Below are positions 56,341 through 64,000 of a stretch of 64,000 nucleotides of DNA, piece after piece. Where the stretch lies: contig JAHHGX010000070.1 of the NCBI GenBank assembly GCA_019359675.1, forward strand, positions 1 to 64,000, read 5' to 3'. Made by a program: the position numbers and the translations under genes. The stretch comes from Calothrix sp. FI2-JRJ7 (lineage in GTDB: Bacteria > Cyanobacteriota > Cyanobacteriia > Cyanobacteriales > Nostocaceae). Below the pieces are notes generated by a model. It was not told where the DNA came from, made no database searches, and saw only the letters and a program-made list of their open reading frames with translations. Every line of letters starts with the position of its first letter. Position 1 is the first letter of the stretch.

Positions 56341-56383
56341 GTAGGTGTATTCTTCAACAAATTCATACGTAAATAACTAAACT

Positions 56384-56484
56384 AGGACTCACGCAAAGAA
56401 ACCTGGTTTCTACGCAGAATCGTCATTTTTATTACATGTTATTAACGAAGAAACAAGGTTTCTAGGTTTTCATGCGTAAGTCCT
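56384..56484 (-). repeat. Long foldback element, second copy (inverted relative to 19559)
   Basis: Begins AGGACTCACGC, contains GAAACCTGGTTTCT and TCATTTTTATTACATGTTAT, and ends GGTTTTCATGCGTAAGTCCT, the reverse complement of the start of the element at 19559-19676. Internal AAACC/GGTTT arms link it to the GAAACCCGG repeat family. Confidence 0.75.
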
Positions 56485-56533
56485 GTAAACATTAAGGGTA
56501 GTGTCCTAAATTCTTGTACTTATGGGAAGTATT

Positions 56534-58015
56534 CTAAAAAACGTTACTCAATTCGCTTAATAATTCTCTATTAATAGGCGCCGTATTCAAAATATCATGT
56601 TTCAAGTCACCCCATTTTTTTCCTTCGCGTGTTTTATGTAAACTGAGAATTTCAGCCGCATGAGGATTTACGATTATGGAAGGTGGCGCCAGTTGACCCA
56701 AAAGTCTTGCATGACGATATTGAGGAGACTGTTGCAGTAGTGTATCTAATTTTTCAGCAAGTTCATCAGTATCTGTATTCGCTGTATCTAGTAGAAGGAT
56801 ATATCTGGCTGTTGGGATGTGGGTAGGTATGAAAGTTTTAAAGCTAGTTTCAGGCAGAGGTAAATTATCAAGTACTTGACGGACGAACTCAGAGTGTAGT
56901 TTTTCCCCTACTAAATCACTAATTTCTTGTGTGCGTCCTATAAACTCTAAACAGGGAGTAGCGTGGTAGAAGTGGGTAACGCGAACTCGGTCTTTAATAC
57001 GGTAACGGTATAACCCACCTTTTTGAGAAATAATAATTTCGTATACTTCTGCTTTTTGGAGTTCGTGAAGAAGGTATATATCACCTTTTGCATCTTCAAA
57101 CTCGAAAAATACCTCATCCAACATTGGCACGCATCCATTTGCTGGTATAAGGGGAATGGTCATTGGCGCCTCAGTTGCCAAAAGTCCTTTACCCTGTACT
57201 AATACACCAGGGAAAAGCTTTCGTAACGTTTGGGCGCCATCCGCAGCATTTGCACTGTCCCAACATGAAATTAGTTTGAGATGGCGCCAGAGTTTACTAT
57301 ATTCTGGTGGTGCCAATAGTAAGTTGTAGCGTTCGGCTGATATTTTAGCTTTTAACTCAGATGCTAGCTGTATATGATGAGAGTTTATATAATCGAGGAT
57401 AACTTTAAGAAAACTAGGACTCCATATTGAGATAATTTCTAGATTTTCTGCGAGTAGTAGCGCTTGAGAAAGTTTGTATTTAAATTCTTCAGCGTTATGT
57501 ATATGCTGTATTCCAGGAGGTGACACTAAAAAAGGACTGAGAATAGCGCGTAACCAACCATCAAGATATTCAGAGTCATCTTGTAGAGTTGTAACATCTG
57601 CGGGTGGAGTTAACTGTGGTGATATACAAAAGTAAATTTTCCCAGTTGAGAATTTGGGACCATTGACAATTAAATCATGTGCCCAGACACAGAACATATG
57701 ATTAAACGAACGACGCAAAGATTTTGTATAAGGTATTAATTTTGCTGCGCTACGACTTCCTGATGTTTTTTCGTAAAAAATAATTGCTTCAGCAGTCAGG
57801 TTGTTTATACAGCTTTCAATATCTTGGTACTCAACAATAGGTATTTGGCGCCAGTGTGTAATATTTAAAGATTTTCCATATTCACTTTGAGTAAAACGTT
57901 GGAAAAGTTCTTTTTGTAGATTTTTTTGAAAGAGTTCAGGGTTTTTAATAGCACGATAAAATCTATTTGCGGCAGGAGCAAAGAGTTTTTCAAATATTTT
58001 TATAAATATAAACAT
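56534..58015 (-). CDS. GH3-family adenylating acyl-acid amide synthetase
   Basis: GH3 enzymes adenylate a carboxylic acid and transfer it to an amino acid or amine. The 493-residue protein shows the family landmarks: ATP-binding loop EKTSGSRSAAKLIPYT near residue 80, ISCWDSANAADGAQTLRKLF, KGLLATEAPMTIPL near 285 (binding of ATP and acyl acid), QKGGLYRYRIKDRVRVTHFY near 345, and LVGEKLHSEFV near 380. Last gene of the oxidative cluster, 2 bases after the acyltransferase gene. I infer it finishes the pathway by amide or ester formation. The first 20 residues are basic/aromatic and may be membrane-proximal. Confidence 0.9.
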   Translation of the reverse strand: MFIFIKIFEKLFAPAANRFYRAIKNPELFQKNLQKELFQRFTQSEYGKSLNITHWRQIPIVEYQDIESCINNLTAEAIIFYEKTSGSRSAAKLIPYTKSLRRSFNHMFCVWAHDLIVNGPKFSTGKIYFCISPQLTPPADVTTLQDDSEYLDGWLRAILSPFLVSPPGIQHIHNAEEFKYKLSQALLLAENLEIISIWSPSFLKVILDYINSHHIQLASELKAKISAERYNLLLAPPEYSKLWRHLKLISCWDSANAADGAQTLRKLFPGVLVQGKGLLATEAPMTIPLIPANGCVPMLDEVFFEFEDAKGDIYLLHELQKAEVYEIIISQKGGLYRYRIKDRVRVTHFYHATPCLEFIGRTQEISDLVGEKLHSEFVRQVLDNLPLPETSFKTFIPTHIPTARYILLLDTANTDTDELAEKLDTLLQQSPQYRHARLLGQLAPPSIIVNPHAAEILSLHKTREGKKWGDLKHDILNTAPINRELLSELSNVF

Positions 58016-58017
58016 AA

Positions 58018-58617
58018 TTATTTTAATACTGGAAATGTCGTAGGTATTGGTATGTAGCTGTTATCTTGAATAGTTCTCCCTGGTGCAATATTATTCCCGG
58101 CGCCTACAAATACATTGCTACCAATTTTTACTTTTTTGACGTATAGTAATAAATCTTGTTTTTTGGGTTTAATTATATGGGAATAAATTCCAACCCCATA
58201 TCCAAAAATTACATTATCACCTATTTCTAGTAATCCTCTATCAGCTATTTCTAATTTTGGTGTCCAATAAACTTTTTTACCAACTGTTGAACCCCATAGT
58301 CTTAACCACAGAGAAAATGCTCCTGGTATTAAGCGTAATATTGCTTCAAATACAGGAAATGTGATATAGATACTTTGAATTTGATGACTTCCCCACCAAG
58401 GTGAATATTCTTTGCCACAAAGATAACTAGTATCTTCTTTTATGGGTAAAAAATAATTATGTATTCGATAAATGAGTAAAGGGAAGATATAAATAGAAAA
58501 TAATAAAGCTAATACGCTAAGAACCCCGGGTTGATAACAAATTCCTAGAAATGAGCTAAATATCATTAGCATGATTAGAGTTGGGAAAAAAGAAAGTATT
58601 GTACTTAGTAAAGTCAT
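58018..58617 (-). CDS. Membrane-linked left-handed-beta-helix (hexapeptide) acyltransferase
   Basis: N-terminal membrane segments (LSFFPTLIMLMIFSSFLGIC, VLSVLALLFSIYIFPLLIY) precede a hexapeptide-repeat fold (WGSTVGKKVYWTPKLEIADR, LLEIGDNVIFGYGVGIYSHI, VKIGSNVFVGAGNNIAPG) related to WcaF/serine acetyltransferases. The conserved catalytic His is probably in YSHIIKP. 199 residues. ATGA overlap with the upstream hydroxylase gene and a 2-base gap to GH3 tie it to this operon. Likely adds an acyl group to a hydroxyl made by the oxygenases; inference. Confidence 0.82.
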   Translation of the reverse strand: MTLLSTILSFFPTLIMLMIFSSFLGICYQPGVLSVLALLFSIYIFPLLIYRIHNYFLPIKEDTSYLCGKEYSPWWGSHQIQSIYITFPVFEAILRLIPGAFSLWLRLWGSTVGKKVYWTPKLEIADRGLLEIGDNVIFGYGVGIYSHIIKPKKQDLLLYVKKVKIGSNVFVGAGNNIAPGRTIQDNSYIPIPTTFPVLK

Positions 58618-59381
58618 ATAAAAGGAAAGAATAGTTTTTGTGATAAACTTAGATTTGATATGGCGCCTAAAATTTCTGGTTCTTTTTGATTATCAGAATA
58701 AGTACCGTGCATTTTATCCCATATTTTAAAGTTTGCTCCATAGTTACCACCTTCATAATTACGCGCGTGATGCCATGCATGGTCTTGCGGTACAATTAAC
58801 CAAAGTGCAAGTAGACGGTAAATTATAGATGTTGGTTGTGGTGTGAATGTGCTATGGCGCCATAAATCTAATGCTGAAGTTAAACTGGCGCCAAAAATAT
58901 ACCAAGTTGGGTCTTGCAGTAGATAAATAAATAAAGAGTGAACCCATAAATATATAATCAAAAAGCTTGTCCACAATGTATTACGCGATGTTCCTACTAC
59001 GTCCATTGCTGTTACTGTGTGGTGAACTTTATGCACCGACCATAACCAAGGTGTGTGGAATAAACGATGATTCCAGTAGTATAAATAGTCTACACAAATA
59101 AAGCTAAGACTGAATGCAATTAATGGATGTAGAATAAGTGTGGATTTTAAGCTGGGGAGTAAGTAATTATATAGTTGGAACACTATTGTGATTTGTAATA
59201 TAGGAATAATAATTCCTTGGAAGAATAAACCAATCATATCTAAAAGCCAATCTTGACGATTTTTACTAATTAGCAAGGTAACAATATTTTGATTCGCAAA
59301 GCTTAAAAATAGTAAAACAAGAAAAACGGGAAAAACTAACATAAAATTAAATAAAGGTTTATTATCTTTGTTCCTTGTCAT
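58614..59381 (-). CDS. Fatty-acid hydroxylase / sterol-desaturase family membrane enzyme
   Basis: A 255-residue integral membrane di-iron enzyme with the histidine boxes NHRLFHTPWLW (HxxxH), SVHKVHHTVTAMD (HxxHH) and PQDHAWHHARNYEGGNYG (HxxHH) and about five hydrophobic segments (FMLVFPVFLVLLFLSF, FFQGIIIPILQITIVF, LIAFSLSFICVDYLYYW). Hydroxylates or desaturates a membrane-embedded lipid, carotenoid or sterol-like substrate. Co-transcribed with the acyltransferase (4-base overlap). A dispersed repeat and 140 bases separate it from the upstream Rieske gene. Confidence 0.92.
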   Translation of the reverse strand: MTRNKDNKPLFNFMLVFPVFLVLLFLSFANQNIVTLLISKNRQDWLLDMIGLFFQGIIIPILQITIVFQLYNYLLPSLKSTLILHPLIAFSLSFICVDYLYYWNHRLFHTPWLWSVHKVHHTVTAMDVVGTSRNTLWTSFLIIYLWVHSLFIYLLQDPTWYIFGASLTSALDLWRHSTFTPQPTSIIYRLLALWLIVPQDHAWHHARNYEGGNYGANFKIWDKMHGTYSDNQKEPEILGAISNLSLSQKLFFPFI

Positions 59382-59432
59382 GAGTCGCGAACGTTAACGC
59401 AGTTTTCCCGTAGGGTAGCATGTAAGTCTGTT

Positions 59433-59509
59433 GTGTCATGCTGAGGAACGAAGCATCTTACAAAATTTGAATACGTATAGAGATTCTTCGCTACACTCAG
59501 AATGACAAT
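59433..59509. repeat. TGTCATGCTGA...CAGAATGACA repeat inside the cluster
   Basis: TGTCATGCTGAGGAACGAAG with ATCTTA, ending TTCGCTACACTCAGAATGAC then A. It lies between two co-directional cluster genes, where it could attenuate or process the transcript. Confidence 0.8.
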
Positions 59510-59523
59510 TTATATGTAATTTT

Positions 59524-60546
59524 TCATACCCAAAATTCTACGTTGACTGTTTTCTTGGGTAGTTGACGAGGGTCTTCTCCGTCGGCAATTTTATTACGAA
59601 TTGATTCGACGAATACATGAATGGTATCAGCGGGTGTATTGGCAAATTGGGCGCCGTATTTTTCGATGACTTCGGATTGGATTTTTAATGCTTCGATATC
59701 TTGATGGATAATATATTGGGCTGTCCAATGTATAAAGGGACGCGCGAGTTTGTTCCAGATACCATAGTTATATGTGACATCGGTGTATACTAACGTTGAG
59801 TTTTCGGTTTCTGGTATTGACTGACTTGTTATAAAAAGTTTTCGGTGTTTGCCCATATCGTATTCAACGCTGGTAATATTAGGCATGTGAAATGTATCTA
59901 TATGATGTATTTGTGATGCTTTGCGGTTGAGAAAGCGTGCAAACCATCCCAGGTTATTGGTTTCGTTTTGATATTGGGCAATAACTGAACCATTTTTTCT
60001 TTCTACTAGCATTTCTAGCTTTTGTTGACGAGGTGTGCGAAACACTCCTGGGTGAACGCTGACTGTATGACTCACATCAATAAAATTTTCAGCGCAGTTA
60101 GTAACGTTGTTTTGAAAACGGTTTATTACACGCACTGTTTCCCATCCTGGTTTTTGGTAGTTGGGCATTGCAAAAGGTTTAAAATCTTCGGATGTGTTGG
60201 GTGATAGTTTTACGTATACGAAACCGTCTTGTTCTGTGGTGTTGTAGGTTAGCGTTTGTCGTGCGTTACATATACGGGGGTTGTTTGCTTCGGAGGGGAT
60301 GGTTACGACTTTGCCGTTTTTGTCATATACCCAACCGTGGTAAGGACAGTGTATTTGTCCTTGATGGACTTTTCCTTTCGATAACCGACTGTTTCTGTGC
60401 ATACATTTATCGCGTAATGCTACAGGTTTTCCGTCTGGGTCACGAAATATTACTAACCACTCGTTTAAAATTGTACGTGAAAGGACGGTGTTTGTTTTGA
60501 GTTGTTTGCTTTCGCAAACTATGTACCAAAAATCCTCGAATTTCAT
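59524..60546 (-). CDS. Rieske non-haem iron oxygenase (ring-hydroxylating type)
   Basis: N-terminal Rieske centre: Cys48/His50 (DKCMHRNSRL) and Cys67/His70 (QIHCPYHGWVYD). The catalytic domain carries the Asp-x2-His-x4-His mononuclear iron motif in CAENFIDVSHTVSVHPGVF. 340 residues, single-component alpha subunit. It uses electrons from a ferredoxin, and a 2Fe-2S ferredoxin gene ends just 2 bases upstream. Typical reactions are hydroxylation, O-demethylation or desaturation of a ring or sterol-like substrate. The downstream repeat precedes the hydroxylase gene. Confidence 0.92.
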   Translation of the reverse strand: MKFEDFWYIVCESKQLKTNTVLSRTILNEWLVIFRDPDGKPVALRDKCMHRNSRLSKGKVHQGQIHCPYHGWVYDKNGKVVTIPSEANNPRICNARQTLTYNTTEQDGFVYVKLSPNTSEDFKPFAMPNYQKPGWETVRVINRFQNNVTNCAENFIDVSHTVSVHPGVFRTPRQQKLEMLVERKNGSVIAQYQNETNNLGWFARFLNRKASQIHHIDTFHMPNITSVEYDMGKHRKLFITSQSIPETENSTLVYTDVTYNYGIWNKLARPFIHWTAQYIIHQDIEALKIQSEVIEKYGAQFANTPADTIHVFVESIRNKIADGEDPRQLPKKTVNVEFWV

Positions 60547-60548
60547 AT

Positions 60549-60836
60549 TTATGTTAAGGGAGATATTTTAATATCATTTGTAAGTTGTATTTGGCAAGCT
60601 AGTCTTGCTTGTTTATTTTCTGGTGCGAAGATTTCTAAGATTTCTTTTTCTTCTTCGGTTGGGGGAGGTATGTCTCCTTTTATAGATACAAGGCAGGTTC
60701 CGCAAATTCCTGTTCTACATCCAAATAATATAGGAGAGTTTTGCACTGTTAAATGCTCTGATAAGTTATCGTCTTGGTTAAGATGTATATCAGGATAATT
60801 TTGTTCAAAACTGATTTTACAAAGTTTTTTATTCAT
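60549..60836 (-). CDS. [2Fe-2S] ferredoxin of the oxygenase cluster
   Basis: 95 residues with ligands Cys40, Cys45, Cys48 (FGCRTGICGTCLVSIKG) and Cys81 (ARLACQIQLT). Closer to the ferredoxins that serve oxygenases (CRxGxCGxC, with SIKGDIPPPTEEE following) than to photosynthetic PetF. Translationally coupled to the Rieske gene downstream, so it is very probably the dedicated electron donor for the two Rieske oxygenases. No reductase gene is seen in the window. Confidence 0.92.
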   Translation of the reverse strand: MNKKLCKISFEQNYPDIHLNQDDNLSEHLTVQNSPILFGCRTGICGTCLVSIKGDIPPPTEEEKEILEIFAPENKQARLACQIQLTNDIKISPLT

Positions 60837-60907
60837 TGTTGTTTCTTTTGTCTTGTGGAGCGGGCATCCCGAACCGCCTCTAGTAATTTCAAATTTTCTT
60901 TTACCAA

Positions 60908-60977
60908 TAGAAACCCGGTTTCTTTTGGTGTTCAGTGCTATTTGTTTTATTCAGTGATGGAGAAACCGGGTTTCTTC
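60908..60977. repeat. GAAACCCGGTTTCT foldback repeat overlapping a coding end
   Basis: AGAAACCCGGTTTCTTTTGG, spacer, then AGAAACCGGGTTTCTTC. Its right half supplies the last codons of the upstream Rieske gene (EETRFLHH and stop). A GTGGAGCGGGCATCC repeat precedes it at about 60855-60885. Confidence 0.85.
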
Positions 60978-61967
60978 GGGTTTTTTAGACCATATTGAGG
61001 GTTGGAGTTGGTCTACGTAGTGCATGTATTTTACTAGGGGTTCATCTATGTTTAAGAGGGCGTTTGGATTATAATTAATATTGTCGTAAATCATGCCGTC
61101 TTCGTCTCTCAGGAAGTAGTAAGCGGCTTTTGTTAGTAATAGTAATATTTTGGTTTTGAAGGCGCCTAATATACCTTTTCTTTTTTCTGCTATATATATA
61201 GGTTGAATGCGCGTTCCTTTATCTATAGGGGTGTAAGCATAAATCATGTGTAATGGCGCCACGAATTTGACTTTCTTCATAATTGTTAAAAGTCCTATAC
61301 ACCCGTGTGCATACCTCATGGTGTATTCGTAGTAGTTTCCTAAAATTTGCCTTGCTAGTCTTTCTCTGGGGGTGGTATTGGGAAATTCACCACTGAGGGT
61401 AAAATCTATAATGTCACCTTTGGCATTTGCTTGTAAGGATAATTTCATATCGATGTTTAATTTATGCACGGTTTGTAAATGTTGAGCATCGATACCGTTC
61501 ATCATACAAATGTGGTGATGACAACCTCGTTCAAAGGGTTTATCAAACATTGTCATTAATGTTTTACCTTTGAGTTCGTCAAATTCTACTACACCTTCAG
61601 GCGCCTTTGCATCAGGATAAATCCAAATAAATCCATATTTTTCATCTGTACTATAAGGTTGTAATTTAGCTTTTGCAGGAATTTGTTTTTGGCAGGGAAT
61701 ATCTTGGCAAGTTCCTTCACTGTCAAATGCCCAATGATGAAAATAACAGCGAATGAAGTTACCTTCTACTTTTCCTATTCCTAAGTCGGTTCCTAAGTGT
61801 GGACAATATGCATCAAGTGCGTGGAGTTGTCCGTTTTGGGTACGAAAGATGACGATTTTTTTTCCACATAATGTTAAAGATTTTACTTTGCCTTTTGGGA
61901 TGTCTTTACTTGGGCAAGCTATATACCATCCTTTGGCTATGATGTTGGGGTTATTGAAAATTTTCAT
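60951..61967 (-). CDS. Rieske non-haem iron oxygenase, second type
   Basis: Rieske ligands Cys55/His57 (DAYCPHLGTDLG) and Cys74/His77 (FIRCYFHHWAFD), followed by a catalytic Asp-x2-His-x4-His motif in NGIDAQHLQTVHKLNID. CYFHHW replaces the usual CPYHGW. 338 residues, of the 3-ketosteroid-hydroxylase/VanA-like size. The start overlaps the stop of the AurF-like gene (ATGA), so they are translated together. Its C-terminus is encoded by a dispersed repeat. Substrate unknown; its low similarity to the other Rieske protein suggests a different step. Confidence 0.9.
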   Translation of the reverse strand: MKIFNNPNIIAKGWYIACPSKDIPKGKVKSLTLCGKKIVIFRTQNGQLHALDAYCPHLGTDLGIGKVEGNFIRCYFHHWAFDSEGTCQDIPCQKQIPAKAKLQPYSTDEKYGFIWIYPDAKAPEGVVEFDELKGKTLMTMFDKPFERGCHHHICMMNGIDAQHLQTVHKLNIDMKLSLQANAKGDIIDFTLSGEFPNTTPRERLARQILGNYYEYTMRYAHGCIGLLTIMKKVKFVAPLHMIYAYTPIDKGTRIQPIYIAEKRKGILGAFKTKILLLLTKAAYYFLRDEDGMIYDNINYNPNALLNIDEPLVKYMHYVDQLQPSIWSKKPEETRFLHH

Positions 61968-63121
61968 GATGATGCAAACTGTTTGAATTTTTTAGTTTGA
62001 TGTGCCAAATATTTAGAAATGTTATTAGACCCCATTAAAGACATTTCTTTGTTACTCTTCCATACATAATCGAGTTTTTCTAGGTAAAGTTTATAAGATT
62101 CCATTGCTTCGGTATGTGTGTTGTAGCTACGATGTAGTCCTTCGCTTTCTTCTGTAAAACAGCGTCGCATCATTTCTTTTGCTTCGGCGCCGCTCATATT
62201 AAAGACTGGTGAACACAACAAAAGGTATACTGCCTTATATAAAGCGGGGTCATACCAGAAAATACCGTTGATAACACAAGAAAAGTGATAATGGTCTTTT
62301 TGACAACCTTGTAAACCTAGGTTTGCTACTAATTTTTCAAATTCTGTTGGTGGTTTGAGACAATGAATCACGTCATGGGAGATTATTGTCGAACTGTTAA
62401 AGTGAAAACTCTCGTCCATGAAGTGATAGTAAGATATTTTGGCTGGTATAGGCGCCTGTTCTTGGTGGGGATGTTTTTGGTAATAGTTACTTAGCTTGTG
62501 CTGTACGAGTTTACCGTTGAGTGTTCTAACTCCCCGCACGGTAAAATACTGACAAGCCAAAAAGGTGTTATCTGCTGAAAGTAACCCAAAAGCTTTTAAT
62601 TGTAGTTCTTTCCATTTGCGCTTGAAGTAGTTGGTGTCGGCAAAAACCATTGTTTCGGCAAACGGACTACGCATAGGATAGCTAAATATACGTTTGCCAA
62701 ATAATGCGGACTCAACTTCGTTCGCTACCGTTTTGAAAGCATTTATATGGGCGCGTTCTTGACTCGATTCTAAATCAAGGGTGTCACAAACTATGCGAAA
62801 ATCTTCTTGGGCGTAAAGTCCTGCTGCACTAGTTTGGTTAAAATAAATGGTAGCAATTTCTGCGGAGATGATTTGCGAGTAATATGCTACCCAGTAAAGT
62901 TGATTTAAAATAATGCGTTGGCTAGGAGTCGCTTGTTCCCATAGGGGAGTGCCATACATTAAGGAAAATTCTTCAGGGTTCCAGTATTCATTTTTACAGT
63001 TTTCGTAATTGAAAGCAGCAGATGCAGCATCGAGTAGTGCGGTGTGGTCTTGCTGTTTGTTACGTTTGTGGTTTATTTCTAGTCTACGGTTGACTTGTTG
63101 ATTTTCTGTAATTGTATTCAT
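61964..63121 (-). CDS. AurF-like diiron oxygenase
   Basis: A 385-residue helical protein with the ligand spacing of AurF/CmlI N-oxygenases: Glu88 (IISAEIATIYF), Glu122-x2-His125 (SSQERAHINAF), and His233-x3-Glu237-x2-His240 (YYHFMDESFHFN). AurF converts aryl amines to nitro compounds, but the superfamily also includes aldehyde-deformylating and hydroxylating enzymes. Adjacent ferritin-like and Rieske genes argue for a shared oxidative pathway. The spacing comparison is from memory, so N-oxygenase chemistry should not be assumed. Gap to the upstream gene is 10 bases. Confidence 0.8.
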   Translation of the reverse strand: MNTITENQQVNRRLEINHKRNKQQDHTALLDAASAAFNYENCKNEYWNPEEFSLMYGTPLWEQATPSQRIILNQLYWVAYYSQIISAEIATIYFNQTSAAGLYAQEDFRIVCDTLDLESSQERAHINAFKTVANEVESALFGKRIFSYPMRSPFAETMVFADTNYFKRKWKELQLKAFGLLSADNTFLACQYFTVRGVRTLNGKLVQHKLSNYYQKHPHQEQAPIPAKISYYHFMDESFHFNSSTIISHDVIHCLKPPTEFEKLVANLGLQGCQKDHYHFSCVINGIFWYDPALYKAVYLLLCSPVFNMSGAEAKEMMRRCFTEESEGLHRSYNTHTEAMESYKLYLEKLDYVWKSNKEMSLMGSNNISKYLAHQTKKFKQFASS

Positions 63122-63131
63122 AATCTTTTAT

Positions 63132-64000
63132 TTATAAGCTCGCACACTGTTCTACTGAAAAAGGTGTAAAAGCGTTTTGTTCGTCTAGTTCTTGGACTAT
63201 TGAGACAGTTTGCGGGTTTGTCATTAACCCGCGCAGTAAATTTAAACGACTGCTACTATGATATTCGGCGCCTAATTGTTGAAATACGGTTATTTTCTGC
63301 TGACGTGATAAACTGCCTTTGATTTGTTCGACTGCTGCGACAACTCCCTGTGGTCCGACTTGTACCATTTGTAGAAAGGATGCGAGTATTTCAATAATGA
63401 TTTTGCGACTTTGATGTTCTATCGAAACTTGTTCACATAACCTGACACCTGTTGCATGGTGACGACTTTCGTCTTCTAAAAAGCTTTTTAGTACTGCTTT
63501 AAGTTCTGTGGTTATACAGTTTTTTGCCAAGTTCCGATAATGCGTTAACCCCCATCCTTCGAGTATTACTTGCAGTACAAATATTAGTACAGCTTTGTCA
63601 GAAGTTTCTGCGACATCAGTGAGTAGGTGTAAGAAAGTGTTATTTGTAGAAACTAGTTCGGGGTTTGGTAGAAAAGAACTTATTTTAGCAAGGTGAGTTA
63701 CTTCATCTGCGCTAAATAATGCGTAAAGCATTCGTTCTTCAGTAGTTTCTGCCAGCATGACCATTTTTGACATGTAACCAATACCTGCTTTTTCGATGAA
63801 GTAAGCTTCTTCTAGTAGTGTTTGGTTACAAAGGTGCAAAATTTGGATTTGTTCTTCTAAAGTACTAGCTGTGAAAATATCGACTTTATCTAAATCAAAA
63901 TGTTCTGCGCTCCAGTAAATTGAGTCTGTAGTATAAACTTTTATTTTCCCCACTTTACGTTGAAGCGCAGAGTCTAATATTCGACGCAGTTTGTCTTCTT
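63132..64000 (-). CDS. Ferritin-like diiron-carboxylate protein (5' end outside window)
   Basis: A four-helix protein with two E-x-x-H motifs (SADEVTHLAKISSFL and LEDESRHHATGVRLC) plus further Glu residues (TLLEEAYFIEKAG, VILEGWGLTHY), the ferritin-like diiron layout. A GTG at 63953 could be read as the start, but the frame stays open upstream (EDKLRRILDSALQRKVGK) to the window edge, so the gene very probably begins outside. First gene seen in the cluster. Could be an oxygenase, an aldehyde oxygenase or an oxidase; catalytic type cannot be settled. Confidence 0.82.
   Translation of the reverse strand, partial: EDKLRRILDSALQRKVGKIKVYTTDSIYWSAEHFDLDKVDIFTASTLEEQIQILHLCNQTLLEEAYFIEKAGIGYMSKMVMLAETTEERMLYALFSADEVTHLAKISSFLPNPELVSTNNTFLHLLTDVAETSDKAVLIFVLQVILEGWGLTHYRNLAKNCITTELKAVLKSFLEDESRHHATGVRLCEQVSIEHQSRKIIIEILASFLQMVQVGPQGVVAAVEQIKGSLSRQQKITVFQQLGAEYHSSSRLNLLRGLMTNPQTVSIVQELDEQNAFTPFSVEQCASL

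Follow-up and report, generated by a model that had tools for sequence, protein, structure and literature searches.

What would a tightly packed run of oxidative genes make when no enzyme for building a scaffold is encoded among them? The question is raised by the last eight open reading frames (ORFs) of the window, as we call the whole 64,000-nucleotide stretch analyzed here, which is part of contig C70 of the 8.66 Mb genome of Calothrix sp. FI2-JRJ7. These ORFs (56534–64000) are co-directional on the minus strand, with the ATGA overlaps and 2-base gaps reported in a preliminary description of this DNA. That description, based on the window alone, proposed an undescribed cluster of two diiron enzymes (one of them AurF-like), two Rieske oxygenases, a ferredoxin, a membrane hydroxylase, an acyltransferase, and a GH3 synthetase. 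The cluster has ten genes, which almost certainly constitute one dedicated pathway. This pathway is real and conserved, and its class is already listed in print. New relative to the parts of the three sources used here (the main text of PMC8406957, and excerpts of PMC12101540 and PMC12493201) is the link between a Glu-to-Gln variant of a CylC-like dimetal enzyme, the Rieske cluster, and a co-inherited gene set.

Co-inheritance of the gene set

The CylC-like protein, Rieske oxygenases A and B, the GH3 enzyme, and an amidohydrolase found near many relatives of the cluster were searched for in 291 genomes of the order. The CylC-like protein (at least 59% identity), Rieske A (at least 56%), and GH3 (at least 44%) are each present in 40 genomes, and these are the identical 40, including those in which the set is scattered. 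In the other genomes, a single weak match was obtained for Rieske A at an E value of 1e-60 (G014, 37%) and seven weaker ones for GH3 at 1e-20, and the CylC-like search adds 35 genomes with only distant CylC homologues (37% or less). Rieske B was identified in 37 of the 40 cluster genomes (not in G064, G123, or G290) and nowhere else above 38% identity. The amidohydrolase, at 1e-60, occurs in 24 of the 291 genomes, all of them inside the 40, with one copy (G240) shortened by a stop. The membrane hydroxylase, sought in 15 genomes, is present in nine of nine tested cluster genomes with a split or contig-truncated set and in three of three genomes of another class, and absent from three controls (G014, G278, and G060). 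It is this shared distribution, together with a conserved gene order and the occurrence of all ten genes in one stretch of a genome from another class (G293), that argues for one pathway. Because the genomes share ancestry, the counts cannot be treated as independent, and no probability was computed. Presence also varies within a genus, g2, where G077 has the set and G035, G111, and G274 are without the CylC-like gene.

Gene order was compared in 80 named loci, the best 80 of 148 relatives by the CylC-like protein, with up to 10 kb fetched on each side and rows below 38% identity left out of the gene-content counts. All but one of these loci are titled cyanobacteria; the other (L175) is titled Planctomycetota and may be misbinned. 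Among these 80, the nearest by the CylC-like protein are from Calothrix and Dulcicalothrix, at 97% identity. All ten genes are present at 38% identity or above in 33 of the 80 fetched stretches, and several of the remaining loci are cut by contig ends; L186 is not scored as complete because its GNAT (33%) and ferritin-like (31%) proteins fall under the threshold. The order Rieske C, ferritin-like, CylC-like is kept in 72 of the 80 loci and the ferredoxin–Rieske A pair in 61. The preliminary description had named separation of the genes in all relatives as the outcome that would count against it; they are not split in all, and where they are split they are still co-inherited.

Beyond the order, 386 genomes of the phylum were searched with the CylC-like family profile, which had matches in 22; one of these (G042) has only a distant homologue, and three belong to another class. 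Among these three, G293 has all ten genes within 9.6 kb in a different order, its GNAT and ferritin-like proteins having only 33% and 31% identity to those of the cluster, while in G304 and G320 the stretch read holds part of the set, the ferritin-like gene being located elsewhere. No match to PF00124, the photosystem reaction-centre family, was found in G293, G304, or G320 (the last only 73% complete), and seven were found in the source genome. The product is therefore unlikely to depend on photosynthesis. Deltaproteobacterial CylC homologues are mentioned by Eusebio et al. 2021 (PMC8406957). In plasmid records, the CylC-like protein has matches in four at 27–30% identity and GH3 in six at 25–32%; the ferritin-like protein has no match there.

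The CylC-like enzyme and its Glu-to-Gln branch

The protein previously called AurF-like (61964–63121, minus strand, 385 residues), the only CylC-like match in the source genome, is by its motifs a homologue of CylC-type dimetal enzymes. It contains QExxH (Q121, E122, H125) and HxxDExxH (H233, D236, E237, H240), the motifs given for CylC-type dimetal halogenases (PMC12101540). The AurF N-oxygenase profile (PF11583) gives 19.4 bits against a cut-off of 29.6 (29.4 bits for the G293 homologue), and Gln121 stands where AurF has the second-sphere Asp135. Both observations tell against an N-oxidizing pathway, in which one or both dimetal enzymes would be AurF-like N-oxygenases leading to a nitro, nitroso, or azoxy product, as does the structure model of the ferritin-like enzyme, for which aldehyde-deformylating oxygenases rank higher, if by only 1 to 2 Z. 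We consider N-oxidation very improbable.

Nine residues are essential in NocO, and its E252A variant loses chlorination and retains iron (PMC12101540). The CylC-like signature at the nine equivalent positions is E88, Q121, E122, H125, Q207, H233, D236, E237, and H240, so that eight of the nine are kept and Gln207 replaces NocO Glu252. The equivalent residues were placed by motif, by spacing to HxxDExxH, and by an alignment of homologues that did not include the CylC and NocO sequences themselves. According to the NocO authors, Gln occurs at this position in a small subset of homologues (PMC12101540). In our alignment it is found in all 111 rows of the Rieske-cluster branch, and Glu in all 11 other homologues. 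After addition of five loci and removal of duplicates (126 rows reduced to 117, the named and G-handle loci overlapping in part), 106 distinct Gln proteins stand against 11 Glu proteins. L066 was unread by the pattern in this count and has Glu in the alignment, and for a few Gln rows (L116 and L146 among them) the contig is too short to show the Rieske genes. On a tree of 70 of the 117 sequences, built by a quick method with column 207 kept in, Glu to Gln is a single change and the branch has a support (SH-aLRT, Shimodaira–Hasegawa-like approximate likelihood ratio test) of 100. The distance between the two motifs is 110–112 residues in all 106 Gln types, 158–176 in five Glu types, and 111–115 in the other six; because of these six, length alone does not mark the Gln branch. 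The five long-spacing homologues are from L073–L076, where an acyl carrier protein (ACP) was confirmed in L073 and a polyketide synthase (PKS) in L076. On alignment and tree, then, the Gln proteins are a separate branch with a predicted altered active site. The Gln could mean a different reaction or merely an emptier halide site, and because it replaces Glu we file the protein as a CylC homologue and not as a halogenase.

Since the protein is a CylC-type homologue, the locus belongs to a class already in print, and the cluster is not undescribed as first proposed. Eusebio et al. 2021 classed 95 clusters with CylC-type genes, 40 of which were found only through manual annotation, and the largest class, ‘Rieske-containing’ (n = 36), is orphan; its members have a single CylC homologue and between two and four Rieske proteins, and most also encode a protein of the sterol desaturase family (PMC8406957). 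Our cluster likewise has three Rieske proteins, a sterol-desaturase-type membrane hydroxylase, one CylC homologue, acyltransferases, and no carrier protein, and the named loci are mostly from Nostocales-type genera; at the level of the main text, rather than gene by gene, there is no difference in kind. GH3 is present here and has no occurrence in that main text. No product or characterized pathway for this class turned up in the literature searched, and to that extent the earlier statement that no pathway with this set has been described holds.

For this class, Eusebio et al. suggested action on central fatty acid metabolites (PMC8406957), and close to their proposal is a halogenating pathway, in which the CylC-like enzyme would chlorinate a free or coenzyme A-bound fatty acyl group that the other enzymes would oxidize and conjugate. 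The suggested substrates, the homology to CylC-type halogenases, and the eight retained residues are consistent with it, and with Gln the proposed halide site is free of a carboxylate. However, Gln is invariant in the 106 branch proteins at the very position where the Ala variant of NocO loses chlorination, and CylC and NocO use ACP-bound chains (PMC12101540), whereas the cluster has neither an ACP nor a fatty acyl ligase. Halogenation is a serious contender, to which we would give somewhat less than an even chance.

The matter reaches beyond this locus. Among cyanobacterial halogenases, CylC-like enzymes rank as a major class, and if the largest class of their clusters (36 of 95, PMC8406957) carries the altered-site branch, halogenase counts and product predictions may be wrong. 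The natural Glu/Gln pair offers a direct test of what decides between chlorination and hydroxylation at a dimetal site.

Two loci (L063 and L065) resemble the ‘PriA-containing’ CylC clusters of Synechocystis described in the main text of PMC8406957, with GNAT, Rieske C, ferritin-like, and CylC-like genes beside PriA, and in L063 also a GGDEF/EAL protein. The genomes of these two loci carry Rieske A, ferredoxin, GH3, and the membrane hydroxylase at other sites, with PriA as no more than a neighbor, whereas the window set forms one cluster. A second, Glu-type CylC homologue is found in L070 and L071 (from G036 and G078, not from G290, the third PriA-type dispersed genome); in L070 it lies beside ABC-transporter-like and glycosyltransferase-like genes, as named by eye. 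Another context for pairing of CylC with ferredoxin is seen in L066–L069, from four genomes of one family, where a short Glu-type CylC homologue (34–36%) and a ferredoxin relative (34–39%) lie close together near PKS and PfaD-type genes.

Candidate substrate and chemistry

What would the ten proteins do together? We propose that the dimetal pair, the membrane hydroxylase, and the Rieske enzymes, fed by the ferredoxin, would oxidize a carrier-free, fatty-acyl-type substrate stepwise, that N or O groups would be acylated by the GNAT and hexapeptide proteins, and that GH3 would adenylate a carboxylate and join it to an amine. The amidohydrolase, an Mpo1-like protein, and a GT2 protein would join in a subset of genomes. 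We give this chemistry as a whole, with its substrate class, order of steps, and amide product, about an even chance. The preliminary description had likewise imagined stepwise oxidation of a lipid-like scaffold followed by acylation and conjugation; the oxygenases, acyltransferases, and GH3 that this calls for are present, and the lipid-like substrate is still what we infer.

The predicted families are those of a multi-oxygenase cluster with its own ferredoxin, as first described, and two acyltransferase-type genes in all. Pfam cut-offs are passed by Rieske A (59524–60546, 340 residues; Rieske 89.5 and VanA_C 39.3 bits), Rieske B (60951–61967, 338 residues; Rieske 86.9 bits, with CxH-CxxH and DxxHxxxxH motifs), the 2Fe-2S ferredoxin (60549–60836, 95 residues; Fer2 35.6 bits), the hexapeptide acyltransferase (58018–58617, 199 residues; Hexapep 31.2 bits), and the membrane fatty acid hydroxylase/sterol desaturase family protein (58614–59381, 255 residues; FA_hydroxylase 88.2 bits, with His clusters). 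The last belongs to PF04116, which we take to cover sterol desaturases. All three domains of the GH3-type acyl-acid amido synthetase (56534–58015, 493 residues; GH3 79.2, GH3_M 61.9, and GH3_C 29.4 bits) also exceed their cut-off of 23.6 bits each. Both dimetal proteins are below theirs, the ferritin-like enzyme (63132–64000 in the window, with its ATG across the edge at contig position 64043; 303 residues) with 21.6 bits against 24.7 for Ferritin_2. All these genes are on the minus strand.

The fatty-acyl part of the proposal draws on related enzymes and on a neighboring gene. The structure model of the ferritin-like enzyme is nearest to cyanobacterial aldehyde-deformylating oxygenase, an enzyme that acts on fatty aldehydes. 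The Mpo1-like gene is present in 26 of the 80 named loci and adjoins Rieske B in 25 of these (the tested protein scores 33.5 bits for PF06127, cut-off 24). Fatty acyl chains are the substrates of CylC and NocO (PMC12101540), and OlsH, a GH3-like lyso-ornithine lipid synthetase, makes N-acyl ornithine from fatty acids (PMC12493201). Like the OlsH system as described there, ours has a bacterial GH3 enzyme with a lipid-hydroxylase-type gene nearby; unlike it, there is no alpha/beta-hydrolase family match (the family of OlsI) among the ten genes.

Several observations weigh against this proposal. The solved relatives of the Rieske proteins (SxtDIOX, SxtT, NdmA, dicamba demethylase, and 3-ketosteroid hydroxylase) are not lipid enzymes; their substrates are alkaloids, methyl- or methoxy-bearing aromatics, and steroids. 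The models of OlsH, OlsE, and SdmA score far below their cut-offs, and methane monooxygenase, among others, matches the ferritin-like model almost as well as the top-ranked enzyme does. Three cluster genomes lack Rieske B, the genomes counted are related, and the literature searched gave neither a substrate nor a product for the class.

Three specific candidates were set aside. The GH3 protein gives 15.7 bits with the NCBIfam model of OlsH (cut-off 620), and OlsE is likewise far under its cut-off, so an ornithine lipid pathway was rejected. The SdmA 4beta-methylsterol monooxygenase model (NCBIfam, cut-off 600) gives 74.9, 70.8, and 93.5 bits with Rieske A, B, and C. Saxitoxin-like tailoring was considered since Rieske A and C have SxtDIOX and SxtT among their closest solved relatives (the matches span approximately residues 6–198 and 14–175), and set aside, no search having been aimed at other saxitoxin genes.

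The demethylases and the steroid hydroxylase among the Rieske relatives (3-ketosteroid 9alpha-hydroxylase being nearest to Rieske C) would suit a catabolic or detoxifying cluster, in which Rieske oxygenases would open a scavenged compound or strip it of methyl groups, and conjugation would fall to GH3 and the acyltransferases. The company, in many genomes, of an amidohydrolase (in 20 of the 80 named loci) and an Mpo1-like protein would also fit. However, no transporter or regulator was recognized among the ten genes, and the set retains two dimetal enzymes and two acyltransferase-type genes throughout. Such a role seems unlikely.

Returning to the fatty-acyl proposal, we would tentatively extend it, with slightly less confidence than in halogenation. 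The Gln branch may be a distinct dimetal family that oxidizes C–H (or C–N) bonds and is not a halogenase. Working alongside GH3, the three Rieske oxygenases, and an enzyme like aldehyde-deformylating oxygenase, it may serve an ancient carrier-free pathway to a polyoxidized lipid amide, conserved in photosynthetic and apparently non-photosynthetic members of the phylum. A co-inherited gene set with no scaffold enzyme also points to a widespread metabolite, one that rule-based cluster detection can overlook.

Layout, flanks, and minor observations

The ten genes are ordered, 5' to 3', GNAT, Rieske C, ferritin-like, CylC-like, Rieske B, ferredoxin, Rieske A, membrane hydroxylase, hexapeptide acyltransferase, and GH3, with gaps of 101, 10, 10, -4 (ATGA), 114, 2, 142, -4 (ATGA), and 2 bases. 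The first two lie beyond the window edge, the GNAT-fold protein at contig 65163–65885 and Rieske C at 64054–65061 from an inner ATG. We prefer this start because the longer reading from TTG crosses a dispersed repeat, giving a false N-terminal extension. The cluster thus continues to the right, as the preliminary description predicted, and has three Rieske proteins rather than two; the scaffold genes that it suggested might lie there were not found in ORFs read to contig position 75999, where only Rieske C and GNAT join the cluster. No PKS, nonribosomal peptide synthetase, cyclase, carrier protein, or fatty acyl-AMP ligase is among the family matches of the ten genes. Past GNAT, a divergent gene for the RsmE ribosomal RNA methyltransferase bounds the cluster, and beyond GH3 an SMC gene and a PRC-barrel gene lie on the plus strand. 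Promoter and terminator scans gave sites no commoner than in shuffled sequence.

A dispersed repeat with the palindromic core AGAAACCNGGTTTCT has copies at window positions 56374–56493, L005:4906–4979, and L005:9085–9193. About 40 relatives of the copy after GH3, some 70–150 bases long, occur in the same genome, and cores of this type also sit in the Rieske B–ferredoxin and GNAT–Rieske C gaps.

The Mpo1-like gene was sought in the source genome and the fetched loci. In the source genome it is found together with the GT2 and amidohydrolase genes on contig C83, unlinked to the cluster. In L166, from a Richelia sp. SL_2_1 metagenome-assembled genome, GNAT, CylC-like, and GH3 are each represented by two ORFs, which could be broken genes or assembly errors.

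In the three genomes examined of the seven with weaker GH3 matches (G278, G060, and G014), a relative of the cluster GNAT adjoins GH3. A cyanobacterial arrangement different from that of the cluster, with GNAT relatives at 36–58% identity beside a distant GH3 and no CylC-like gene within the stretch, is seen at L097:7737–18679, L098:6321–14642, and L099:5252–13734, and may represent a sister pathway. L097 also has a fatty acid desaturase, a distant Rieske A, and an RnfD/UnbV-type protein.
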